Shown in pieces: positions 52,277 through 64,000 of a stretch of 64,000 nucleotides of DNA. Source of the DNA: Methylobacterium oxalidis. Lineage in GTDB: Bacteria > Pseudomonadota > Alphaproteobacteria > Rhizobiales > Beijerinckiaceae. Location of the stretch: positions 1 through 64,000 of the forward strand of contig NZ_BJZU01000028.1 of assembly GCF_007992195.1 (NCBI RefSeq), given 5' to 3'. The notes under the pieces are model-generated. The model had not been told where the DNA came from and made no database searches. It was given only the letters and a program-made list of their open reading frames with translations. The translations under genes were made by a program, and so were the position numbers. Position 1 is the stretch's first letter. Each line of letters starts with the position of its first letter.

Positions 52277-53347
52277 TTACTCCGCCGCTTCCGTCCGGCT
52301 GCTCCGTGACGCTGGCAGCCGGACGGCCCCGCGCTCGTACCAGCCTTGGCTCCGGTTCACGATCCACACCACCGAGAGCATGACCGGCACCTCGATGAGG
52401 ACGCCGACCACGGTGGCCAGCGCTGCGCCCGAGTTGAAGCCGAACAGGCTGATCGCGGCGGCCACCGCCAACTCGAAGAAGTTCGAGGCGCCGATCAGCG
52501 CCGACGGGCCGGCCACGCAGTGCTGCTCGCCCGCGGCGCGGTTCAGGAGGTAGGCCAGTCCGGAGTTCAGGTAGACCTGGATGAGGATGGGGACCGCGAG
52601 CAGGCCGATCACCGCTGGCTGCGCCAGGATCTGCTCGCCCTGGAAGCCGAACAGCAGCACCAGGGTGGCCAGGAGCGCCATGAGCGAGGCCGGCCCGAGC
52701 TTGGCGAGGAGTCGGTCCAGCGCCGCCTGCCCGCCCGAGGCGAGGAGGGCGCGGCGCACGACCTGGGCGATGATCACCGGGATGACGATGTAGAGCACCA
52801 CCGACAGAACCAGCGTGCCCCAGGGCACCGTGATGGCGGAGAGCCCGAGCAGCAGGCCGACGATCGGCGCGAAGGCCACCACCATGATCGTGTCGTTCAG
52901 CGCCACCTGGCTCAAGGTGAAGTGCGGCTCGCCCCGGGTCAGGTTCGACCACACGAACACCATCGCGGTGCAGGGCGCCGCCGCCAGGATGATGAGCCCG
53001 GCGATGTAGCTGTCGATCTGGTCGGCCGGCAGGTAGGGCCGGAACAGGTAGCCGATGAACAGCCAGCCGAGCGCGGCCATCGAGAAGGGCTTAACGGCCC
53101 AGTTGATGAACAACGTCACGCCGATGCCGCGCCAGTGCCGCCCGACCTGCCGCAGCGAGGCGAAGTCGATCTTGAGCAGCATGGGGATGACCATGAGCCA
53201 GATCAGGGCGGCGACCGGCAGGTTCACCTTGGCGACCTCGGCCGCGCCGACGGCGTGGAAGAAGCCTGGCATGACGTGGCCGAGCGCGATGCCGGCCACG
53301 ATGCAGAGGGCAACCCAGACGGTCAGGTAGCGTTCGAACAGGGACAT
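52277..53347 (-). CDS. acr3: ACR3-type arsenite exporter
   Basis: A 356-residue inner-membrane As(III) efflux protein with ten helices. Starts MSLFERYLTVWVALCIVAGI. Signature: AAPCTAMVFVWSNL with the conserved Cys, LNDTIMVVAFAPIVGLLLG, and NFFELAVAAAISLFG. The C-terminus is short and basic. It follows the ArsC gene by nine bases, and completes reduction plus export of arsenate. Confidence 0.94.
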   Translation of the reverse strand: MSLFERYLTVWVALCIVAGIALGHVMPGFFHAVGAAEVAKVNLPVAALIWLMVIPMLLKIDFASLRQVGRHWRGIGVTLFINWAVKPFSMAALGWLFIGYLFRPYLPADQIDSYIAGLIILAAAPCTAMVFVWSNLTRGEPHFTLSQVALNDTIMVVAFAPIVGLLLGLSAITVPWGTLVLSVVLYIVIPVIIAQVVRRALLASGGQAALDRLLAKLGPASLMALLATLVLLFGFQGEQILAQPAVIGLLAVPILIQVYLNSGLAYLLNRAAGEQHCVAGPSALIGASNFFELAVAAAISLFGFNSGAALATVVGVLIEVPVMLSVVWIVNRSQGWYERGAVRLPASRSSRTEAAE

Positions 53348-53356
53348 CGGGCTTCC

Positions 53357-53782
53357 TCAGGCGGTGGCGACGCGGCGGCCGTGCTCGTCGACGACGCGCT
53401 CGCCGTCCTCCTTCACGAGTTCGCCCTGCTGGGCGGGAAGCAGATCCAGCACAGCCTCGGACGGCCGGCACAGGCGCACGCCCTTCGGGCTGACCACGAG
53501 CGGGCGGTTCAGCAGGACCGGATGGGCCTCGATCGCGTCGAGGAGCTGCTCGTCGGTCAGCGACCGATTGGCGAGGCCGAGTTCCGCGTAGGGCGTGCCT
53601 TTCTCGCGCAGCACGTCCCGGACCGAGAGGCCGGCACGGGCGAGCAGTTGCTTGATGAGCGCCCGGCTCGGAGGCGTCTTCAGGTACTCGACCACGTGCG
53701 GCTCGACGCCGGCGTTGCGGATCATCGCCAGGGTGTTGCGCGACGTGCCGCAGGCGGGGTTGTGGTAGATGACGACGTCCAT
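53357..53782 (-). CDS. arsC: Arsenate reductase, glutaredoxin-coupled type
   Basis: A 141-residue ArsC of the ArsC/Spx fold. MDVVIYHNPACGTSRNTLAM holds the catalytic Cys. YLKTPPSRALIKQLL and LNRPLVVSPKGVRLCRP are typical. It reduces As(V) with glutathione and glutaredoxin. Its ATG overlaps the stop of the second, unrelated arsenate reductase (TGATG). Confidence 0.93.
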   Translation of the reverse strand: MDVVIYHNPACGTSRNTLAMIRNAGVEPHVVEYLKTPPSRALIKQLLARAGLSVRDVLREKGTPYAELGLANRSLTDEQLLDAIEAHPVLLNRPLVVSPKGVRLCRPSEAVLDLLPAQQGELVKEDGERVVDEHGRRVATA

Positions 53783-54309
53783 CACGCGACCTCCGGGCGG
53801 GCCGAGGTGGCGCCGGCGAGCTGGCCGATCTCCCGGACCTTCGACGACAGGGCGACCTGGTCGAGGCTGCCGAGCGGCAGGGCAACGAAGGCCGCGATCC
53901 GATTCTTTAGGTAGCGCTGGGCGGTGACGAATGCGCGCTTGCGCTCCATCTCCGAGCCCTCCGCCGCCGCGGGGTCCTCGATGCCCCAGTGGGCCGTCAC
54001 CGGCTGGCCGGGCCAGTACGGGCACGCCTCGCCGGCGGCGTTGTCACAGACGGTGAAGACGAAATCCATGACGGGGGCGTCGGGCCCGGCGAACTCGTCC
54101 CACGACTTCGAGCGCAGGCCCTCGGTCGGGTAGTCGCTCTCCCGCAGGACCTGCAGCGCCAGCGGGTGCGGCTCGCCCTTCGGTTGGCTGCCGGCCGAGA
54201 AGGCGCGGAAGCGCCCGCCGCCCTCCTTGTTGAGCATGGCCTCGGCCAGGATCGAGCGGGCCGAGTTGCCGGTGCAGAGGAACAGGACGTTGTAGGCGGG
54301 CTCAGGCAT
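53782..54309 (-). CDS. Arsenate reductase, low-molecular-weight phosphatase type
   Basis: A 175-residue protein of the LMW-PTP fold: NVLFLCTGNSARSILAEAML is the P-loop (C-x-x-N-S-x-R-S pattern), FSAGSQPKGEPHPLAL and DFVFTVCDNAAGEACPYWPG supply the second Cys and the acid loop. This type uses thioredoxin or mycothiol-like couples, unlike the glutaredoxin type next to it. Starts inside the end of the upstream arsR (8-base overlap). Confidence 0.92.
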   Translation of the reverse strand: MPEPAYNVLFLCTGNSARSILAEAMLNKEGGGRFRAFSAGSQPKGEPHPLALQVLRESDYPTEGLRSKSWDEFAGPDAPVMDFVFTVCDNAAGEACPYWPGQPVTAHWGIEDPAAAEGSEMERKRAFVTAQRYLKNRIAAFVALPLGSLDQVALSSKVREIGQLAGATSARPEVA

Positions 54310-54661
54310 GGAGGGTGTCCCCGGTGGTGCAGTCGCAGGCGGCGAGCGCGGCGACGGCCGGGTTGCACACCTCCGGGTGGCCCTGGCAGCAGTCGCGCAT
54401 GAGGAACTGGACGAGGTCGGACAGGCCGGCATAGGCGGCGCTGTAGATGACCGACTTGCCCTCGCGGCGGGACGTGATCAGCCCGGCATGCGAGAGCTCC
54501 TTCAGGTGGAAGGACAGGTTGTTGCCGGCGACGCCCACGGTCTCCGCGAGCACTCCGGCCGCGAGGCCGTCGGGACCGGCCGTGACCAGGGCGCGCACGA
54601 CCCGCAGGCGATGCTCCTGTCCGAGCGCCGCGAAGGCGGCGAGGGCTTGCCGTTCGTCCAT
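54302..54661 (-). CDS. arsR: ArsR-family regulator, second copy
   Basis: A 119-residue repressor: FAALGQEHRLRVVRALVTAG, HTH AGNNLSFHLKELSHAGLITS, wing KSVIYSAAY. The tail RDCCQGHPEVC provides Cys for As(III). It heads the arsC-arsC-acr3 operon and is divergent from arsH across the dyad at 54676-54691. Confidence 0.92.
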   Translation of the reverse strand: MDERQALAAFAALGQEHRLRVVRALVTAGPDGLAAGVLAETVGVAGNNLSFHLKELSHAGLITSRREGKSVIYSAAYAGLSDLVQFLMRDCCQGHPEVCNPAVAALAACDCTTGDTLHA

Positions 54662-54675
54662 CGAATGACCTACAT

Positions 54676-54691
54676 ATCAACTCCTGTTGAA
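54676..54691. promoter_or_regulatory. ArsR operator between arsR and arsH
   Basis: ATCAA-CTCCTG-TTGAA, a dyad of the usual ArsR type, in the 50-base gap between divergent genes. One site could control both directions. Confidence 0.7.
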
Positions 54692-54711
54692 ACGTAGAGG
54701 AATCAAGCGCC

Positions 54712-55458
54712 TTGGACAAGCCCCAGCAGCCGTTCGCCGACGGGATGCCCAACCTCTCCGAGGCGCATTTCGAGGTGCCGACCGCCGAGCGCGTGGAGGC
54801 GTCGATGCCGCTCGCCCACGCGCCGCGCTTCCTGATCCTCTACGGCTCGCTGCGCGCGCGCTCGTTCAGCCGCTTCCTGGCCTACGAGGCGGCGCGCCTG
54901 CTGGAAGCGATGGGTGGCGAGGTGCGGATCTACGACGCCCACGGGCTGCCGCTGCCCGACGACGCCACCGCCGACCACCCGAAGGTGCAGGAGCTGCGGC
55001 AGCTCTCGATCTGGTCCGAGGGCCAGGTCTGGGTCTCGCCGGAGCGCCACGGCAACCTGACTGGCGTGATGAAGAGCCAGATCGACTGGCTGCCCTTGAG
55101 CGAGGGCTCGGTCCGGCCGACCCAGGGGCGGACGCTCGCGGTGATGCAGGTCTCGGGCGGCTCGCAGAGCTTTAACGCCGTGAACTCTCTGCGGGTGCTC
55201 GGGCGCTGGATGCGGATGATCACCATCCCGAACCAGTCGTCCGTGCCAATGGCCTACAAGGAGTTCGACGACGCCGGCCGCATGAAGCCGGGCCCCCTGT
55301 ACGAGCGCGTGGTCGACGTATGCGAGGAGCTGATGAAGTTCACGCTCCTGACCCGCGGGAGGGCCGACTACCTCGTCGACCGCTACAGCGAGCGCAAGGA
55401 GCGCGAGCCGGAACGGCTCAAGGCCATCGCTTCCGACATCGGTTTCGCCAAGCCCTAG
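54712..55458 (+). CDS. arsH: ArsH NADPH-dependent FMN reductase
   Basis: A 248-residue flavoprotein. [20 protein letters not shown] is the FMN-binding start of the flavodoxin-like fold. Also [20 protein letters not shown] and [17 protein letters not shown]. ArsH oxidises trivalent organoarsenicals. The reading frame begins with TTG 54712 preceded by AGAGGA; ATG 54745 is the other candidate. Divergent from the ars operon and expected to be arsenite-inducible. Confidence 0.93.
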
Positions 55459-55580
55459 GCTTGCGTCGTCGACGATGATCGTTCGCTGGACTCCGGCCCT
55501 CACGAGTGGGCGCGGTAGGCGCGACGGAGCAGGCGCGTGCTATGCCGCGCCTGTTCCTCGACCGGGAGCGGGCTAAGGCA

Positions 55581-56246
55581 TCAGGCGAAGTCCTCGTCGT
55601 AATACATCGAGTCGTCCACCTTGCCGTCGGTCTCAAGCTCCGGTTCCATGTAGGCGATCCGCCCTGCGACGCGCTCGAACGTCATCACAGTCGTGAAGAC
55701 GATCTTGTCGCCATGGAACGCCCGATCCTGGTCGTTCTCGCCGTTCAGCGATCCGGTCAGGGTCGCGACCAGCGCGTCGTCACTCGGCTTGAAATCGTAT
55801 TCCTCGATGTAGAGCTCATCGAAGTAGGCGTTCGTCGAGGCGATCTCGCCGTCCAGGGCCCCCTCGATCATCATCGGGTCGTCCTGGACGAACGCGTTGA
55901 CATCGTCGCTCAGATGCCTGGACCTCCAGAACCGGCCGTCGAAGTGGCCCTGGCTCGCGAGGAAGTCGCACAGCTCGGACGTGAGATCCTCGACGCCGGG
56001 CAGGTCGGCGGGAAGCCCCCGGAGCGTTCCGACTCGCTCGTCCATTAGGCGCAGGTCCGGGATGAGGATTTCGGCCTTGCCGATGTCGCTCAGGGGAAAC
56101 CTGGTTTCCGCTCGGAGCGCCGCGGCCGTCTTGTATCCGAAGAATGCGGCCACGAGTTCGTGCGCGTGAGAGGAGCCCAGCTTGTTGCCGGTCAGGAGGC
56201 GATAGCGCGCGCGCAGGTGGTCCGCGCAGTCCTTGGGAAGGGACAT
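55581..56246 (-). CDS. Hypothetical protein
   Basis: A 221-residue acidic protein. The first 45 residues (RYRLLTGNKLGSSHAHELVA, then FFGYKTAAALRAE) form a helical motif that I have seen at the start of uncharacterised bacterial proteins. The rest is Asp/Glu-rich with a beta C-terminal region (DKIVFTTVMTFERVAGRIAY). No signal peptide. Function unknown. It stands alone, leftward, upstream of the kinase operon. Confidence 0.65.
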   Translation of the reverse strand: MSLPKDCADHLRARYRLLTGNKLGSSHAHELVAAFFGYKTAAALRAETRFPLSDIGKAEILIPDLRLMDERVGTLRGLPADLPGVEDLTSELCDFLASQGHFDGRFWRSRHLSDDVNAFVQDDPMMIEGALDGEIASTNAYFDELYIEEYDFKPSDDALVATLTGSLNGENDQDRAFHGDKIVFTTVMTFERVAGRIAYMEPELETDGKVDDSMYYDEDFA

Positions 56247-56610
56247 GGCACATCCATTTCACACCGGCGTCTTGAGTGGGTGGTCACAAGCGCTTGATGA
56301 TCACCCTGCGCCGGCAGAGATGGTTGCCGTTCAGGTATCGATCCGAGATCGAGTTCGCCGCCTTTTGGGTCGCTTGCAGCCCGGGCATCGGCTCCGGTTT
56401 GGAATGTAGCCGTCGCGACCACGCTCGGCAACTGGCATCCCGCGATCGGGCGTCTGGTTATCCCGCACCGGACGGGGCTTCGGCCTGCGGGCCCCATCGG
56501 ACGCGCCGCGGCGCTTGCGCCCGTCCCGCGCCCCGCTCCTGGCCTTCGCACGCGCGTCCGTGCGAAAAGCCCGGCACCAAGCTCGACAGGGCGGCAACTG
56601 GGGGGATGCG
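56247..56610. promoter_or_regulatory. Upstream region of kinase operon, with hairpin
   Basis: About 360 bases without a supported gene. A perfect hairpin TTCGCACG-CGCGTC-CGTGCGAA lies at 56544-56565, 45 bases before the GTG start. It could be an operator or attenuator. The plus-strand frame across the region has no protein-like composition. Confidence 0.45.
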
Positions 56611-57066
56611 GTGATCACGATCGGGATCAGGGCGGCGCCACGCGTGGTCACCTTCGCGGTCTACGACACGGACGCCAAGACGGTCATCAACGTCGAGGAG
56701 ATCAGGATCCCGGCGGCCTTTGGGACCCCCGACGGGCTGAAGTACCTGCGCAGCAACCTCCTGGACGTCCTGCGCGAGTTCCGGGTCGAGAGGGCCGGCG
56801 TGCGGCTCACCGAGCCCAGCGCGCAGTCCCTCAGCATCGACCGCGTCCAGATCGAGGGCGTCATTCAAGAGGCCTTCGCCAGCAGCGAGCTCTCGGCCTA
56901 TTTCGCGGGCCCGATCGCCACCGGGGCGGCCCGCCTTGGCATCGAGCGGACGCGGTTCAAGCCACTCGCCGACGGCGAGGACGGGTACGGCATCGAGAAC
57001 TGGGGAAAGATGTCGAAGGAGGAGCGGGAGGCGATCCTGTACGCCATGGGGGCCGAAAATGCTTAA
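56611..57066 (+). CDS. RNase H-like-fold candidate, first gene of kinase operon
   Basis: A 151-residue protein. GTG 56611 follows GGGGGA and starts at the first strand. The order looks like RNase H/RuvC or DUF3010-like folds: strand pair ITIGIRAAPRVVTFAVYDTD, helix with LKYLRSNLLDVLREF, strand ERAGVRLTEP, helix DRVQIEGVIQEAF with a conserved-type Glu, and a C-terminal helix. The first strand has Arg where active nucleases have Asp, so catalysis is doubtful. Its stop overlaps the kinase start by eight bases. Assignment is by pattern only. Confidence 0.6.
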   Translation: MITIGIRAAPRVVTFAVYDTDAKTVINVEEIRIPAAFGTPDGLKYLRSNLLDVLREFRVERAGVRLTEPSAQSLSIDRVQIEGVIQEAFASSELSAYFAGPIATGAARLGIERTRFKPLADGEDGYGIENWGKMSKEEREAILYAMGAENA

Positions 57067-58105
57067 GCCGTACAACAAGGCCGAGCTGACCTTTGAGCGG
57101 GTGCGGGACATCGGCGCGGACGGCCGCAACTCGGAGACCTTCCTCTCGCGCGATCACCAGCTCAACGCGGAGATCGTAACGAAGCGGATCGCGAAGGCGA
57201 GCCTGGCCTCGCCGGCCGAGTTCTTCGCGGAGTCGCAGGCCCTCTACGCGAGCGCTCATCAGAACGTCGTTCAGATCCACTACGCCTGCTACGACGAAGA
57301 CCATATCTACCTAGCGATGCCGTTCTACCGCCGCGGCTCGGTGAAGGGCCTCATCACGGGCCGCTACATGACCGTCCGCGAGATCGTCACGGTCGCCTGC
57401 CAAGTCCTGAGCGGGCTTCACCACATCCACTCGAAGAAGCTCGTCCACTTCGACGTGAAGCCCGACAACATCCTGCTGTCGGACCGGGGCGAGGCGCTGG
57501 TGTCGGATTTCGGGCAGGCCAAGCAGATGAACTTCGTCGGGAAGGCCGAGCAGGACCGGCACTACACCCCCATGATCCCGCCCGAGGCCCTGGCGGAGGA
57601 TCGGTTCGACCTCACCTTCGACATCTACCAGTTCGGGCTGACCCTCTACCGGATGTGCAACGGGAACGAGGCCTTCCACGCGCAGCTGGCGAAGTACGGT
57701 CCGCCGGGACCCGGTTTCGACCGGGCCGGCTTCCGGTATGACGTCCGGAACGGGCGGTTCCCTGACCGCCGGGCGTTCGCGCCGCACATCCCGTCGAAGC
57801 TCCGCAAGGTCGTCCGCGCCTGCCTGGAGACAGAGCCCTCCGATCGATACGGTTCCGCCCTAGACGTGGCCAACGCACTGGCCGACATCGACGGCTGCCT
57901 GCTGGACTGGCGCCTGGAGGCAACAGCTGATAAGAGAGTTTGGAGGAAGAACGAAAACGGAACGTCGTACGAGTTCACCGTAAACGGGGACGGGAGCTCC
58001 GAGTGCTACAAGACGAAGGACGGCGGACGGCGGCAGCGCGTGACCGCCGCATGCCAGACCAAAATCTCCGAGCGGGACGTGGAGCGGCTGCTAGGTTCCT
58101 ACTGA
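57059..58105 (+). CDS. Serine/threonine protein kinase
   Basis: A 348-residue soluble kinase. ATP-site Lys42 (EIVTKRIAK), helix-C Glu58 (AESQAL), catalytic loop HFDVKPDNILL (Asp132, Lys134, Asn137; HFD instead of HRD), DFG at 150-152 (SDFGQAK), IPPEAL in place of APE, and DIYQFGLTLYRM. The Gly-rich loop is weak (IGADGRNSETF). After the kinase lobe, a short beta-rich tail (YEFTVNGDGSSECYKTKDGG) may read a signal. No membrane segment or PASTA domain. It overlaps both neighbours, so the three proteins are made together. Confidence 0.92.
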   Translation: MLKPYNKAELTFERVRDIGADGRNSETFLSRDHQLNAEIVTKRIAKASLASPAEFFAESQALYASAHQNVVQIHYACYDEDHIYLAMPFYRRGSVKGLITGRYMTVREIVTVACQVLSGLHHIHSKKLVHFDVKPDNILLSDRGEALVSDFGQAKQMNFVGKAEQDRHYTPMIPPEALAEDRFDLTFDIYQFGLTLYRMCNGNEAFHAQLAKYGPPGPGFDRAGFRYDVRNGRFPDRRAFAPHIPSKLRKVVRACLETEPSDRYGSALDVANALADIDGCLLDWRLEATADKRVWRKNENGTSYEFTVNGDGSSECYKTKDGGRRQRVTAACQTKISERDVERLLGSY

Positions 58106-58293
58106 TGGCCAAGATCAAGAACGACCCGAGCCGATACGTCAGGCGCTCCAGCCTTGCTGGGCGCCCGGCCGCCTGCGCGGGCGAAAAGGGCGATCAGGCG
58201 AACCGGAAGCCGGAGCGGGACTTCCTGGCCGCCCCCATCGGCGACGACTTCTACGTGGATTTCCGACCTCAGGGCCGTCGAGACAACACATAG
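58105..58293 (+). CDS. Small protein of kinase operon, 62 aa
   Basis: Starts by TGATG overlap with the kinase stop. MAKIKNDPSRYVRRSSLAGR is basic, with Ser residues in R-R-S-S context that could be a phosphorylation target. The end, LAAPIGDDFYVDFRPQGRR, is strand-like. It is a likely kinase substrate or partner, by position. Confidence 0.65.
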   Translation: MAKIKNDPSRYVRRSSLAGRPAACAGEKGDQANRKPERDFLAAPIGDDFYVDFRPQGRRDNT

Positions 58294-58381
58294 AGATCCG
58301 CGCGACTGCGCCGCGGATCGCATTCGGGCCGTCCGGACGTGAGACGGGGCGAGCGACCGGCCCCGCACCGGCGCGACGAAG

Positions 58382-58666
58382 TCACCGCTTTGCACCGCAA
58401 GGCCGGCTGTAGACCGTGCCGTCGTGCTCCAGGGCGCCGTCCGAGCGCACGACGAGATCCACATCATACGGGACCTCCGCCCCACCCATGCCGTAGCAGC
58501 GCGCGGCTCGGACGCGGCCGCCGGGGATTGTCGCGTGCCGGCAATCCATCAGGTCGATGCCGACGTCAGGGCCTGGGCCGATGGTAATGTCGGGCATGCC
58601 CGGCGCGCAGTAGCGGCCGGGTGCGGGTAGGGGCGGACGCATCTCGGGCGCCATAGGCGGCTTCAC
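58382..58666 (-). CDS. Small hypothetical protein
   Basis: A 94-residue protein from GTG 58666 or ATG 58654. Pro-rich start (MAPEMRPPLPAPG), then CRHATIPGGRVRAARCYGMG and VPYDVDLVVRSDGALEHDGT. The C-terminal pattern suggests a small beta barrel. Not recognised; convergent to the kinase operon. Confidence 0.45.
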   Translation of the reverse strand: MKPPMAPEMRPPLPAPGRYCAPGMPDITIGPGPDVGIDLMDCRHATIPGGRVRAARCYGMGGAEVPYDVDLVVRSDGALEHDGTVYSRPCGAKR

Positions 58667-59130
58667 ACCCTAAGGCGCATTCTCTAGGTAGGCGCAGGGT
58701 GGTTCGCTCCCGTTCGCCTAAGCATCGTCGATGAGCAACGAAGCGCCGAGAGCCGACTTCGGGCTAGTCGGACTTGGACCGCCGCTCCCGACCCTTCTCG
58801 GGCCTTCGGATTGTCTGCTTATCGGCCATCTGATTGGCCCAGAACGACCGATCCTGGCCGCAAGCGGCCTGTCCTCTTAGGGGCTCAAGCTAAGGGCAAG
58901 CGGACGTCCTACGCCGCTCAGGTGAATGCCTCAAAGTGACCCATTGCAGACGGTCGGAATGTCCGCTTCCAGGCAGTTCAATGGACCCGGTTCGGCAACT
59001 TCTGGCCAGTAGTGGCCTGTCTGCTCTGGGGAGGGCTTGCCAAAAAGAGCAGACAAGGCCCTACCGAACCAACCCAGTCGTAAAGCTCGATTGGCGTCGG
59101 CCTCAAAAATGGACACCAGCACGCCGCCAG
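58667..59130. other. Gene-free stretch
   Basis: About 460 bases with no supported gene; short frames lack protein-like composition. Several TCCGCTT-like and GGCCAGTAGTGGCC (near 59004, a dyad of GGCCA/TGGCC type) short motifs occur. It may be intergenic repeat-type DNA of the genus. Confidence 0.4.
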
Positions 59131-59805
59131 TCACCGCCGCCCGGCGGCCTCCAAGCGGGTCCGGTCAACAATCTCGACCGCGCCTCGACGAAGTTCGATC
59201 AGGCCCGCCTCGGCCCATTGTGCCAGAATGCGGCTCACCACCTCGCGCACGCTTCCGACATCGTCCGCGAGCTTTTGATGGGTCACCGCGGCGACGCCCC
59301 GCGGATCGGCTTCAGCGAGGAGGCGTTGCGCGAGGCGCTGCTTTAGCGGTGCGAACGCGACCTCGTCGATCAGCGTGAACAGGCCGGACATCAATCGCGT
59401 GTAGTCATCCATGACGAATCTGCGGAACGCCGCGCTGTCGCCGATCAGGTGCTGGAACGTGCCGACCGGCAGGGCCGCGAGTTCGGTCCGCTCCTCGGCC
59501 ACGCTCTGCGCCGGAAAGGTGCCGCCGGACAGGAGACACTGAGTGGTGAGGGGGCAGGTGCCGCCCGGGCCAACCTTGTAGATCAGCACCTCGCGTCCGC
59601 CCTCCGACATCCGGAAGATCCGCGTGCGTCCCTCCAGGCACATCAGGTAGTTGGCACACTCGCCATTTAGTTCGTAGGCGATGGCGCCTGCATCCAGCAC
59701 CGGGAAATGCACGGTTCCCCGAGCGATCTGAAGATGCGCCGGGCTGAGAGCTTGAAGAAGCGGAAACCGGTCGATCCACCGCTCGACCTTTTGGGCATCC
59801 GTCAT
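59131..59805 (-). CDS. Crp/Fnr-family transcription regulator
   Basis: A 224-residue regulator. From MTDAQKVERWIDRFPLLQAL, a cyclic-nucleotide-binding barrel (GAIAYELNGECANYLMCLEG; EVLIYKVGPGGTCPL) and a C-terminal winged helix (HQKLADDVGSVREVVSRILA). There is no N-terminal Cys cluster for an Fe-S centre as in FNR. The start at 59805 is chosen for the conserved opening. Divergent from the pentapeptide gene, with a palindrome between them. Confidence 0.9.
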   Translation of the reverse strand: MTDAQKVERWIDRFPLLQALSPAHLQIARGTVHFPVLDAGAIAYELNGECANYLMCLEGRTRIFRMSEGGREVLIYKVGPGGTCPLTTQCLLSGGTFPAQSVAEERTELAALPVGTFQHLIGDSAAFRRFVMDDYTRLMSGLFTLIDEVAFAPLKQRLAQRLLAEADPRGVAAVTHQKLADDVGSVREVVSRILAQWAEAGLIELRRGAVEIVDRTRLEAAGRR

Positions 59806-59886
59806 GGCTGGCGTGGTCCCCCGGCCATGACGACGGGTTGATCGTCCGGCGCGCGTTGCGTTTTCCTCCCGCCGCGCCGGATTTGT

Positions 59887-59900
59887 GTGACCTGGGTCAC
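59887..59900. promoter_or_regulatory. Palindrome between Crp/Fnr and pentapeptide genes
   Basis: GTGACC-TG-GGTCAC, perfect 6-bp arms, between divergent starts. A plausible site for the Crp/Fnr protein. Confidence 0.65.
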
Positions 59901-59990
59901 CGACCGGGTGCAGCGGCCCGGCATAGCATCGCGACACAACGAACACGATAAGGGTGCCCGCCATGCGTGGCGCCCGCCGGGAGTAAACCG

Positions 59991-60791
59991 ATGCGCCGCT
60001 TAGCCCTCAGCTTCATGCTCGCCGTCTTCGCTGCCGGCCCCGCCGCGGCCGAACAAGATCTGCTGCTCGGAGCCGACATGTCCTCGCCTGCCATGACGAA
60101 GGCCGAGATGAGCCGCGCCGACGTAGAGGCGATGATCCAGGCCGCGGACGGTAAGCCCATCGACCTGCACGACAAGGCGCTGTCGGGCCTCGATCTCTCC
60201 GGGTTGAATCTCCGGGGCGTCAACTTACGAACTGCGCGCCTGAACAAGGCCAATCTACGCGGCGCCGACCTCAGCGGCGCAAACCTCGAACAGGCATGGC
60301 TCCTGAAGGCAGACCTTTCCGGGGCCAAGCTCGCGGACGCGAAAATGTTCGGCATCACGGCGCGGGAGGCCAACCTCAGCGGGGCCGACCTCAGCCGGTC
60401 CATGCCCATCGGCGATTTCAAGGGCGCCAACATGAGCAGCGCCACGCTGGTCGATCTCAAGGGCGGAGCCAACATCAAGAATCAGTCCATGGGTCTGATG
60501 CGGGCGGTGTTCACCTCGGTGAACCTGTCGGGCGCGAACCTCAAGGGAGCCAACCTCGGCCGGTCACGCCTGGAGTATGCGAATCTTAAGGATGCCGATC
60601 TCACTGGCGTGGTGCTGATGGGCTCAGACTTGTCCGGGGCCAATTTGACCGGTGCTACGGTCACGGGCGCGGACTTCAAGAACGTCGATGTCAGCGGCGC
60701 TCGTCTCATCGACCTCCAAGGTCAGTCCGAGGCCAAGGACTGGGCGGAGAGGGTGAACATCGACCGTGCCGTCACTCAGGCATCCGATTGA
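59991..60791 (+). CDS. Secreted pentapeptide-repeat protein
   Basis: A 266-residue protein. GGGAG precedes ATG 59991; signal peptide MRRLALSFMLAVFAAGPAAA. About 20 pentapeptide repeats of the A-[D/N]-L-x-x type follow (LSGLDLSGLNLRGVNL; ANLRGADLSGANLEQA; ANLTGATVTGADF), which build a right-handed square beta-helix. Some repeat tracts are interrupted (SMPIGDFKGA, GGANIKNQSMG). Function unknown; the protein is probably periplasmic. Confidence 0.9.
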   Translation: MRRLALSFMLAVFAAGPAAAEQDLLLGADMSSPAMTKAEMSRADVEAMIQAADGKPIDLHDKALSGLDLSGLNLRGVNLRTARLNKANLRGADLSGANLEQAWLLKADLSGAKLADAKMFGITAREANLSGADLSRSMPIGDFKGANMSSATLVDLKGGANIKNQSMGLMRAVFTSVNLSGANLKGANLGRSRLEYANLKDADLTGVVLMGSDLSGANLTGATVTGADFKNVDVSGARLIDLQGQSEAKDWAERVNIDRAVTQASD

Positions 60792-61068
60792 TCCGCCCGT
60801 TCACCAACCTGACGGCCCGCCTCTGACCTCAACGGTTTCTGTCTCAAGAAACCTAGTCAGCGGTAATCTACAACGTTCCCTGATATCAGCGAAGCCGCAA
60901 ACTCGGGTTGCCCAATCGACAAGACTGGCTTCAAGCCAAAGCACGACGTTCGTCGTCCCCAGCCAAATCATCGCATCGCGTGATCAAAATGATCGATACG
61001 TTCCATTGGATCGAACGAATGGACGCGGTCATGGTCGTGGCAGATCCAGTCCGCGAGGTGCACGCACC

Positions 61069-62151
61069 ATGCCCGCAGCAGCCTTTCTCCGATCACGCGC
61101 GCTTGCTCTGTCTTCCATCCTGCCCGGCCTGAGCCTTTGCCTCGCGGTGACGGGCGCCGCCCTCGGGCTGGAGATGGTCGAGAAGCATATCTTCGGCCGT
61201 GCGTGGCTGGAGGCTCTGGTCCTCTCCATCGTGCTGGGCACGGCCGTCCGCACGGCCTGGAACCCTGGTCGGCGCTTCGCTCGCGGTATCGCGTTCGGCG
61301 CCAAGACCGTCCTGGAAATCGCCGTCGTCCTGCTCGGCGCCTCGCTCAGCCTCGGGACGCTGCTCGCGGCCGGGCCGGGGCTCCTCGTCGGCATCGCGGT
61401 GGTGGTGGCCCTCGCCATTGCGGCGAGCTACGGCATCGGCCGAGTTCTCGGGTTGACCCCGCGCCTGGCCATCCTCGTCGCCTGCGGCAACTCGATCTGT
61501 GGAAACTCGGCGATCGCGGCGGCGGCCCCGGTGATCGACGCGGACGGCGAGGACGTCGCCTCTTCCATCGCCTTCACCGCCGTGCTCGGCGTTCTCGTCG
61601 TTCTCGGGTTGCCGCTGCTCGTGCCGCTGCTCGGACTCTCACCGATGCAGTACGGTGTGCTCGCGGGGCTCACGGTCTACGCCGTGCCGCAGGTTCTCGC
61701 CGCAACCGCCCCGGTGGCCGCCCTCAGCGTCCAAGTCGGCACCCTGGTCAAGCTGGTCCGCGTGCTGATGCTTGGGCCAGTGGTCCTGGCTCTCTCGCTC
61801 GGGATTAGCTGGCTGCGCGCGGGGACGGGCGTGACCGTACCGCACCGCACGGCCGGCGAGCGCCCCGCCTCGGGCCGGATGCCGCTGCACCGGCTGGTGC
61901 CGTGGTTCATCCTCGCCTTCCTGGCCTTGACGGGTCTTCGCTCCGCGGAGCTCGTTCCCGAAGCGGCTTTGCACCCCATGGCCGCGGCGGCGAACGCGCT
62001 GACCATCGTGTCGATGGCGGCCCTCGGCCTCGGCGTCGACGTGCGCAGCGTCGCCAAGGCGGGACCACGCGTCACCCTGGCGGTAGTCGCTTCGCTCGCC
62101 GCCCTGACGGCCGTGAGCCTCGGGCTGATCCGCCTGCTCGGCATCGCCTGA
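61069..62151 (+). CDS. yeiH: YeiH-family putative sulfate/sulfite exporter
   Basis: A 360-residue membrane protein of the YeiH (UPF0324) family with about ten helices. Starts MPAAAFLRSRALALSSILPG. Conserved: GVLLGA-type stretch here as VLLGASLSLGTL, ACGNSICGNSAIAAAAPVID, LTVYAVPQVLAATAPV and KLVRVLMLGPVV. With the sulfite oxidase next to it, a role in moving sulfite or sulfate is likely. Confidence 0.88.
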   Translation: MPAAAFLRSRALALSSILPGLSLCLAVTGAALGLEMVEKHIFGRAWLEALVLSIVLGTAVRTAWNPGRRFARGIAFGAKTVLEIAVVLLGASLSLGTLLAAGPGLLVGIAVVVALAIAASYGIGRVLGLTPRLAILVACGNSICGNSAIAAAAPVIDADGEDVASSIAFTAVLGVLVVLGLPLLVPLLGLSPMQYGVLAGLTVYAVPQVLAATAPVAALSVQVGTLVKLVRVLMLGPVVLALSLGISWLRAGTGVTVPHRTAGERPASGRMPLHRLVPWFILAFLALTGLRSAELVPEAALHPMAAAANALTIVSMAALGLGVDVRSVAKAGPRVTLAVVASLAALTAVSLGLIRLLGIA

Positions 62152-62215
62152 AATAGGCCTGCCACCCGGCGCGTATGAGCGCGTTGGAGTCCGACCTTCT
62201 GCGATAGAGACACCC

Positions 62216-63307
62216 ATGTCGAGCTTGACCGAGCGTATGGCGCGCCTGATCGTTCATGGGGAGCGCCCCTACAATGCCGAGCCACCGCTGACCCGCCTGC
62301 GGGCCCGTTACCGGACCCCTGCGGAAGACTTCTACGTCCGCTCCCACGGCGACCTGCCGGAGATCGACGCCGCCGCATGGCGCCTGTCCGTCGATGGCGC
62401 GCATGTCGGTCCCCTCGATCTGTCGCTGGCGGATCTGCGCGCGCGTTTTCCCGAGGCGACCGTCACGGCCACGATGCAGTGCGCCGGCAACCGCCGCGCC
62501 GATATGCGGGCGGTCGCCCCAGTCTCGGGCGATCCTTGGGACGGCGGCGCCATCGGGACGGCGGACTGGACCGGCGTCCGCCTCGGCGACGTCCTGCGTG
62601 CGGCGGGCGTAGCGCCAGGAGCGAACCTCCACTCGGACCTCCATGTGGCCTTCGAGAGCCAAGATGTGGTGGAGGGACGGCCCTACGGCGTCTCGATCCC
62701 GCTCGCCAAGGCGGTCGCCGGCGAGACACTGCTGGCCTTCGCGATGAACGGGGCATCGCTGTTGCCCGAGCACGGCTTCCCCGTGCGGGCCGTCGTGCCG
62801 GGCTTCGCGGGCGTGCGCAGCCCGAAATGGCTGAAGCGCATCACGGTGCAGGACCATCCCTCGACCAACCCGATGCAAGCCGACGACTACAAGCTGTTCC
62901 CGCCGGACGTGACGGCCGAGACCGCCAATCCCGCGAAAGGCCACACCATCGAAACGATGCCGCTTAACGCCGCGATCTGCGAGCCCGCGCGCGGAGCCCG
63001 GCTCAAGGCGGGCGAGACCACCATTCGCGGGTACGCCATCGCGGGAGATCGGGCGATCGTGCGCGTCGATGTCTCGGGCGATGGCGGTCGGTCCTGGCAT
63101 CAAGCTACGCTGGAACACGAGGCCGGCGCTCCCTTCGCCTGGACGTTCTGGGAGATCGTGCTGGACCTTCCGTCCGGCGAGCGCGACCTCGTGGTGCGCG
63201 CCTGGGACAGCACCGGGCAGACCCAGCCGGCGCGGCCGGACGAGACGTGGAACTTCAAGGGCTACCTCAGCGCCTCCTGGCACCGTGTGTGGGTCGAGGT
63301 CGCCTGA
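62216..63307 (+). CDS. Molybdenum-dependent sulfite oxidase
   Basis: A 363-residue molybdopterin enzyme. Domain order: oxidoreductase Moco domain (RTPAEDFYVRSHGDLPEID; ATMQCAGNRR with the Mo-ligand Cys; GFPVRAVVPGFAGVRSPKWL) and a C-terminal Mo-co dimerisation domain (IRGYAIAGDRAIVRVDVSGDGG; RVWVEVA). No signal peptide and no heme domain, so it is a cytoplasmic or partner-dependent SorA/SorT-like form. Forms a sulfite module with yeiH and the LysR gene. Confidence 0.92.
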   Translation: MSSLTERMARLIVHGERPYNAEPPLTRLRARYRTPAEDFYVRSHGDLPEIDAAAWRLSVDGAHVGPLDLSLADLRARFPEATVTATMQCAGNRRADMRAVAPVSGDPWDGGAIGTADWTGVRLGDVLRAAGVAPGANLHSDLHVAFESQDVVEGRPYGVSIPLAKAVAGETLLAFAMNGASLLPEHGFPVRAVVPGFAGVRSPKWLKRITVQDHPSTNPMQADDYKLFPPDVTAETANPAKGHTIETMPLNAAICEPARGARLKAGETTIRGYAIAGDRAIVRVDVSGDGGRSWHQATLEHEAGAPFAWTFWEIVLDLPSGERDLVVRAWDSTGQTQPARPDETWNFKGYLSASWHRVWVEVA

Positions 63308-63321
63308 AGGGCCGCCCCCCG

Positions 63322-64000
63322 TCAGGGGGCGGCACGGATCAGGTCGAGCAAGGCGTCGGCGGCGCGACTGCGGTAGCGCTCCTTGTGGCGCAGGACCCGG
63401 AAGGTTCGCGTCGGCAGAGCGAAGGGCACGGCGACGAGCGCTCCGGTTCGCAGAGAGGGTCCGACCACCGCTTCGGATAGAACGCTCGCCCCGGCCCCCG
63501 CCACGACGGCGGCGAGGACAGCCTCGTTCGACGGCAGTTCGAGGGCAACCGTGAGTGCGTCCGGTGCGATGCCCAGCGCGACGATCGCCGCCTCGAAGGC
63601 GGAGCGCGTGCCCGATCCGGGTTCGCGCAGCACCCAGGAGACTGAAGCGAGGTCGGATCGTCCCGACCGCGCGCGTGCGGCCAACGGGTGATCAGGCGCG
63701 ATGACGAGGATCAGCCGGTCCTCGGCGACCGGAGTGCTCGCGAGGCTGCCGTCCTCGATCGGGCCCTCCACGAAGGCGAGTTCCGCCGTCCCGGCTCGGA
63801 CCGCCTCGGCGGCTTCGGCGGTGTTGCCGATGCCGAGCCGCAGGACGATGTCGGGATAGGCCGCCCGAAAGGCGACGAGGTGCCGGGGGAGCCAGTGGCT
63901 GGCGATGGTCTGGCTCGCCTGGATGGACAGCGTGCCGCGCCGCAAGCCGCTGAGGTCCGCGAGCACCTGTTCGGCCGCCTGGGCGCGGGCGAGCACCGCG
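63322..64000 (-). CDS. LysR-family regulator, 5' part beyond window
   Basis: At least 226 residues of the effector-binding domain (LRRGTLSIQASQTIASHWLP; VRAGTAELAFVEGPIEDG; GSGTRSAFEAAIVALGI). The N-terminal helix-turn-helix lies beyond base 64000. Convergent to the sulfite oxidase. YeiE-type LysR proteins control yeiH in enterobacteria, so this may be a sulfite-responsive regulator. Confidence 0.9.
   Translation of the reverse strand, partial: AVLARAQAAEQVLADLSGLRRGTLSIQASQTIASHWLPRHLVAFRAAYPDIVLRLGIGNTAEAAEAVRAGTAELAFVEGPIEDGSLASTPVAEDRLILVIAPDHPLAARARSGRSDLASVSWVLREPGSGTRSAFEAAIVALGIAPDALTVALELPSNEAVLAAVVAGAGASVLSEAVVGPSLRTGALVAVPFALPTRTFRVLRHKERYRSRAADALLDLIRAAP

Follow-up and report, generated by a model that had tools for sequence, protein, structure and literature searches.

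A Stk-type kinase operon with a probable dead RuvC-fold partner and a microprotein in Methylobacterium oxalidis

Three tightly packed genes lie on the plus strand of contig NZ_BJZU01000028.1 of Methylobacterium oxalidis (assembly GCF_007992195.1), in the stretch of 64,000 nucleotides (positions 1 to 64,000) that we call the window. They encode a protein with the fold of the Holliday junction resolvase RuvC, a Hanks-type protein kinase and a microprotein, and homology joins them to the operon of the phage kinase Stk. Coordinates and overlaps (8 bases, then 1 base at TGATG) were confirmed as given in the original prediction, an earlier note made from the letters of this DNA. The features of this trio are as follows.

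56611 to 57066, plus strand: gene 1, RuvC-fold protein of the phrog_3875 family, 151 amino acids, GTG start; catalytic acids apparently replaced; a probable pseudo-resolvase sensor or regulator.
57059 to 58105, plus strand: gene 2, Stk-type Hanks kinase, 348 amino acids, ATG start, overlapping gene 1 by 8 bases; kinase domain at about residues 8 to 283, C-terminal beta-rich part at about 284 to 348.
57563 to 57565, plus strand: Tyr169 codon of gene 2; this Tyr lies in the activation segment and is the same in all 33 kinases aligned.
58105 to 58293, plus strand: gene 3, microprotein of 62 amino acids, ATG start within TGATG, overlapping gene 2 by 1 base.

The GTG start of gene 1 at 56611 agrees with the start of its homologues. 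An AlphaFold2 model of the gene 1 protein, built with 36 homologues, reached a pLDDT of 94.4 and a pTM of 0.89, and a Foldseek search with this model returned RuvC structures at the top (7w8d, E 1.2e-8, TM 0.68). Comparison with Pseudomonas aeruginosa RuvC (6lw3) in VIA-align gave Z = 18.2 and 2.7 Å over 147 of the 151 residues. As modeled, gene 1 is a complete RuvC fold over its whole chain, which is more specific than the RNase H/RuvC-like fold that had been proposed for structure prediction to check. Existing labels point the same way: gene 1 matches PHROG phrog_3875, ‘RuvC-like Holliday junction resolvase’ (E 8.2e-35), phage RefSeq records give the family the same name, and some E. coli records call it a RuvC family protein. 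Searches of PDB sequences with gene 1 profiles found no RuvC, so the link between the two is structural. Against Pfam, gene 1 had no PF02075 match and only a sub-threshold match to RWP-RK (E up to 1), and it matched nothing in PADLOC (2023 version) or NCBIfam.

RuvC needs all four of its catalytic acids, which we take to be D7, E66, D138 and D141. We aligned gene 1 with 37 RuvC proteins (37 of 42 RuvC loci passed the extraction pattern), and three MAFFT modes placed D7 on R7, E66 on R65, D138 on position 137 and D141 on E140. Among the 36 gene 1 homologues, R7 is Arg in 36, R65 is Arg in 35 and Lys in one, E140 is Glu in 36, and position 137 is variable; R7, R65 and E140 were likewise invariant in a 21-sequence alignment of gene 1 that includes the Bacillus phage copy. 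By alignment, then, the four catalytic acids of RuvC are not kept in gene 1, and we rejected its identity as a true Holliday junction resolvase for that reason. Because the acid positions correspond to R7, R65, a variable site and E140, gene 1 is probably a dead resolvase, in which catalysis was lost on a RuvC scaffold; on the simplest reading, the former active site would now be positively charged on a scaffold without catalysis. An ordinary PF02075 RuvC is present elsewhere in the M. oxalidis genome, and every genome searched, 13 in one set and 60 in another, carries a PF02075 RuvC.

Two sets of observations weigh against a dead active site. First, the profile link between gene 1 and RuvC is weak: hhalign gave E 0.0018 and a probability of 14.6% over residues 3-64, a smaller RuvC set gave a probability of 0.7%, and the global mode of hhalign produced no usable alignment of the two, so that it is MAFFT and the position in the strand that put E66 across from R65. 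Second, E68, E82, E87 and E140 are invariant in 36 of 36 homologues, leaving room for a rebuilt acidic site. Gene 1 could accordingly be an active structure-specific nuclease whose site was rebuilt from invariant acids, E68 and E140 among them. The kinase would then only regulate it by phosphorylation; regulation of this partner by the kinase was one proposal of the original prediction. The RuvC fold, the invariant glutamates and the resolvase label in PHROGs and phage RefSeq agree with this idea, but the positions of D7 and E66 are Arg and a PF02075 match is missing, and we judge an active nuclease to be very unlikely. A dead RuvC scaffold remains our preferred reading of gene 1.

Gene 2 belongs to the Pfam family Pkinase (E 1.9e-35). 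Lys42, Glu58, Asp132, Lys134, Asn137 and D150-F151-G152 are invariant in 33 of 33 homologues; Lys42, Asp132, Asn137 and the DFG motif had already been named as kept in the original prediction, and all are indeed present. The HRD motif reads HFD, with F in 32 of the 33 and L in the other, which makes the protein a non-RD kinase. Judged by these motifs, gene 2 is a catalytically complete non-RD Hanks-type kinase. Tyr169 is a candidate autophosphorylation site, and the HFD motif together with this invariant Tyr of the activation segment suggests control other than classic activation-loop phosphorylation. The kinase domain is followed by a beta-rich stretch and a helix. In a VIA-align search JAK kinases appeared in the top rows, and the 50 listed rows all fell within Z = 27.5-28.3, so narrow a range that no particular kinase group is implied. 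Identity with Mad6 of the MADS system was rejected (108.4 bits, against an NCBIfam cut-off of 460). The PD-T4-6 kinases of PADLOC scored up to 111.3 bits, a value for which PADLOC gives no cut-off here.

The third gene is short, and we asked whether it is under selection. Compared with two Microvirga copies, the nonsynonymous rate (dN) was 0.27 and the synonymous rate (dS) 0.90 and 1.47, and dN was below dS in nine of nine pairs tested. By this measure gene 3 is a real coding sequence under purifying selection. It has no family match in Pfam, PADLOC or NCBIfam. Third proteins of 51-72 amino acids occupy the same place at 21 loci, the only ones at which they were compared as sequences. In these homologues Arg14 is nearly fixed (20 of 21), the next residue is S or T in 16, R in three and E in two, an aromatic patch follows Arg14, and Tyr50 is kept in 17 of 21. 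Otherwise the third proteins are divergent, with 12-65% identity to the M. oxalidis copy (14% for the E. coli one). The small-protein family phrog_4063 matches the E. coli third protein and showed no match to those of M. oxalidis, Scytolyngbya or the Bacillus phage. The RRSS sequence, put forward earlier as a kinase substrate site, was rejected as a conserved phosphosite: it occurs in only two of the 21 aligned proteins, and it is the Arg that is conserved instead.

To see how constant the trio is, we collected 85 loci (numbered with L below). Of these, 82 were scored; L080, L082 and L085 are unoriented minus-strand matches that gave no gene 1, as only the plus strand was read. Some contigs are represented more than once among the scored loci (e.g. 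L007/L027 and L001/L079), and many of the E. coli prophages among them are almost identical to one another. The kinase directly follows gene 1 in 81 of them, including L032, where a contig end cuts the kinase, and L004, where an insertion element breaks it; the single exception, L029, is cut by a contig end. This was also true from the other side, since 59 of 60 viral loci seeded on the kinase contained gene 1 and the 60th begins at the kinase itself. A candidate frame for the small gene was present in 79 of 82 loci by mechanical tally, the exceptions being L004 (broken by the insertion element) and the cut loci L029 and L032. Distances between gene 1 proteins and between kinases correlated with r = 0.92 over 33 loci, and none of 2000 permutations was as high (the L022 kinase entered with its first residues missing, as no in-frame start was found). 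The trio occurs in alpha- and gammaproteobacteria, in the cyanobacterium Scytolyngbya and in two Bacillus SPbeta-like phages. Of 5426 complete E. coli genomes, 223 match the operon, and in 221 the match takes in at least 80% of it. The three genes thus recur together across phyla, as the proposed co-occurrence search was meant to reveal, and do so more than by chance.

The kinase frame was broken with gene 1 intact in three of 76 uncut loci, and the reverse was seen in none. A plasmid of Klebsiella variicola KV1 has an interrupted kinase frame beside an intact gene 1, and an IS1 transposase gene lies within that region (L004:8447-9400). This asymmetry, together with the fact that no uncut kinase-seeded viral locus was without gene 1 (59 of 60 with it, one cut), would also be expected if the trio resembled a toxin-antitoxin pair. 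The kinase would then be constitutively toxic, gene 1, gene 3 or both would be direct inhibitors that a phage titrates or destroys, and gene 1 would have no role with nucleic acids. A kinase-kinase-phosphatase (KKP) defence module of the toxin-antitoxin type is described in PMC11341870. Against this explanation, the whole RuvC fold has been kept with its invariant residues, which suggests a ligand, and we consider simple inhibition unlikely. Membership in KKP itself was rejected, as the trio has no second kinase and no phosphatase (gene 1 is a RuvC-fold protein and gene 3 has no family match).

The trio proved to have relatives in lambdoid phages, where tblastn finds the pair of gene 1 and kinase. 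The kinase is 37.6% identical to stk of phage phi24B (residues 1-329 of 348, E 6e-70) and matches PHROG phrog_2361 (E 3.8e-66), and gene 1 is 40.8% identical to the phi24B-type homologue (residues 4-149 of 151, E 2e-26). The phi24B record names stk and carries the annotation ‘immunity region; similar to bacteriophage 933W’. Phage JLK-2012 carries, one after the other, cII, cro, cI, a DUF3024 gene, the RuvC-like gene, stk, a 54-amino-acid gene and N. The phi24B stretch with gene 1 and stk recurs in 12 phage records with an identity of 99% or more, and the longer one that runs from cI to the 54-amino-acid gene was found 100% identical in E. coli EDL933. The link to 933W runs through phi24B and this EDL933 match, whose location we take to be the 933W prophage. 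The published kinase is that of the 933W prophage of strain EDL933 (PMC3681748). According to papers that cite the original work, this Stk is a tyrosine kinase that is co-transcribed with cI and aborts infection by HK97 (PMC3681748, PMC3564112, PMC8008677; also PMC6356687), the infected cell being a 933W lysogen (PMC3564112, PMC8008677).

The M. oxalidis trio has the RuvC-like gene directly upstream of the kinase and the small gene directly downstream, as in the Stk operon, and it is not located downstream of a phage repressor. On these homologies it belongs to the stk operon family, as a distant relative. The original prediction knew of no described system with this composition; that did not hold, and we rejected the idea of an undescribed composition, since the trio is the operon of a known phage kinase. 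Among the matches listed in a search of open-licence PMC papers, a weak test, no paper treated the three genes as one system, and a dead-RuvC partner of the kinase was not found in print in that collection; PMC10003480 contains nothing on Stk. What is new here is the kinase's constant partners and the lost active site of one of them; the kind of operon was already known. A DUF3024 gene lies between repressor and trio in lambdoid phages (L223:1637-1978 and L005:4421-4762), and none adjoins the M. oxalidis trio.

Phage copies tend to adjoin a repressor. All ten upstream genes that we picked as repressor-like were of helix-turn-helix/S24 repressor types; eight came from a set of 21 loci and two (L005, L006) were annotated, and at other loci of that set the frame listed was not clearly a repressor. 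The trio might therefore be a module of prophage regulation, which would control lysogeny by phosphorylating the repressor or host regulators, would have been domesticated in M. oxalidis, and would exclude other phages only as a side effect. Adjacency to CI/S24-type repressors fits this explanation, but the M. oxalidis and Mesorhizobium copies have no adjacent repressor and the latter stands beside DarG, and RexAB and the 933W kinase are named as exclusion genes on the repressor transcript (PMC3564112); we hold regulation of lysogeny to be distinctly improbable as the primary role. Repressor adjacency is a feature of phage copies and not of all relatives. On the Mesorhizobium plasmid (L002:6227-7947), DarG and a DUF4433 gene, presumably DarT, lie directly upstream of the trio. 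The Scytolyngbya copy adjoins genes matching PADLOC Orf5/HEC-06 and HKD+Snf2, and in Shewanella schlegeliana (L022:10082-14520) the trio adjoins TniQ, Cas8/5f and Cas7f of type I-F and is perhaps cargo of a CRISPR-associated transposon. Family scans of the neighbours covered 89 of 114 frames, picked by a longest-frame rule and not by a gene finder; the remainder were the five frames of L015, which has nearly the same gene 1 as L013, and a further 20 that include some long ones (up to at least 1921 amino acids in one case).

In M. oxalidis the surroundings of the trio are different, and two further features describe them.

52326 to 58634, no strand assigned: block with arsenic-resistance-type genes (a label read from open reading frames) and the trio; a transfer unit or part of one.
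58635 to 58936, no strand assigned: junction zone of about 300 bases in which the matching genomes change.

Two other Methylobacterium genomes share the block at 96.9% identity and a third has it in pieces at 91-95%, in each case without the right flank. That flank, 58937 to 64000, is 99.8-99.9% identical to two genomes that have no DNA match to the trio. Because block and right flank match different genomes, the trio probably arrived along with the part of the block to its left. The region is a mosaic, its trio block and right flank each matching different sets of Methylobacterium genomes. Within the block, a minus-strand gene at 55581-56246 for a 221-amino-acid protein is divergent from the trio; it matched nothing in Pfam, PADLOC or NCBIfam.

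Taken together, we think it somewhat more probable than the alternatives combined that the trio is a horizontally acquired Stk-type abortive-infection cassette in Methylobacterium, here outside a recognisable phage repressor context and within a transferred block. The kinase would be the effector. The dead RuvC-fold protein would form a complex with it and either hold it inactive or switch it on, and would probably sense a phage-made signal, namely DNA branched by replication or recombination, or else a phage protein that acts on such DNA. The microprotein may be an adaptor, inhibitor or substrate, with the Arg motif and the aromatic patch as its binding sites. When a phage infects, the kinase would autophosphorylate, perhaps at Tyr169, and would modify host targets and stop the cell before the phage burst. 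A bolder version, which we offer tentatively and at less than even odds, is that a RuvC has turned into a receptor, its acids having given way to invariant Arg, that recognises branched phage DNA, or a recombination protein of the phage, and turns on the non-RD kinase attached to it with the help of the microprotein. Neither outcome that the original prediction named as refuting it was seen: the model does have an RNase H/RuvC-type fold, and the trio's genes are neighbours elsewhere too. The suggestion of a kinase with dedicated partners in defence, made in the original prediction, thus gains from homology and context, and its interpretation stands in part, without the novelty and the phosphosite.

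Several observations count against the cassette as a defence system. It is rare, being found in six of 397 genomes of the same family, two of 398 of the same phylum and one of 289 of the same class, each count including the M. oxalidis genome itself. No repressor lies upstream of the M. oxalidis trio, where the minus-strand neighbour described above stands. The broken kinases number only three, belong to prophages that are in part redundant, and could reflect mistakes of assembly. Four of ten picked neighbour proteins had no PADLOC match at 1e-10, Pfam shows housekeeping neighbours (aconitase, ATP synthase) among the 89 frames, and one of the neighbour-frame scans listed the best 25 of 75 families. 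In the literature, the effect of stk on the lysogen is called unidentified in one earlier paper (PMC3430580), and only Stk2 of Staphylococcus aureus is counted as an earlier kinase-based defence (PMC11341870).

If the bolder version, that of a receptor, is true, Stk would be the effector in a widespread innate-immune system of three components, and the label of Holliday junction resolvase would have hidden the sensor from view. As the kinase travels with two partners, one of them a probable dead RuvC, how an infecting HK97 activates the 933W kinase, quiet until then, becomes a directly approachable question. The operon is shared by the E. coli genomes counted above and by distant phyla, yet genes 1 and 3 match nothing in PADLOC (2023).

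Compared with known systems, the trio combines familiar parts. Gene 1 resembles RuvC (PF02075) in its whole-length fold, but differs in having Arg at the D7 and E66 positions, D138 not kept and Glu for D141, in lacking a PF02075 match and in being paired with a kinase. Mad6 of MADS and the PD-T4-6 kinases share the Hanks kinase domain with gene 2, whose score, in a comparison of the kinase only, is below the Mad6 cut-off. Lambda RexAB and the trio are unrelated proteins. RexAB is alike in being expressed from the repressor transcript and in excluding other phage (PMC3564112). KKP of Pseudomonas prophages is also a kinase-based, prophage-borne defence, but has two kinases and a phosphatase where the trio has one kinase, a RuvC-fold protein and a microprotein (PMC11341870). 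S. aureus Stk2, likened by description only, is a kinase-based phage defence as well, but a single host-encoded kinase (PMC11341870). Finally, the Stk operon of 933W and other lambdoid phages shares all three genes, their order and their close spacing with the trio, with 38-41% identity in kinase and gene 1 and the same kinase motifs; the M. oxalidis copy differs in having no repressor upstream, in standing beside arsenic-resistance-type genes and in a third protein that is only distantly similar.
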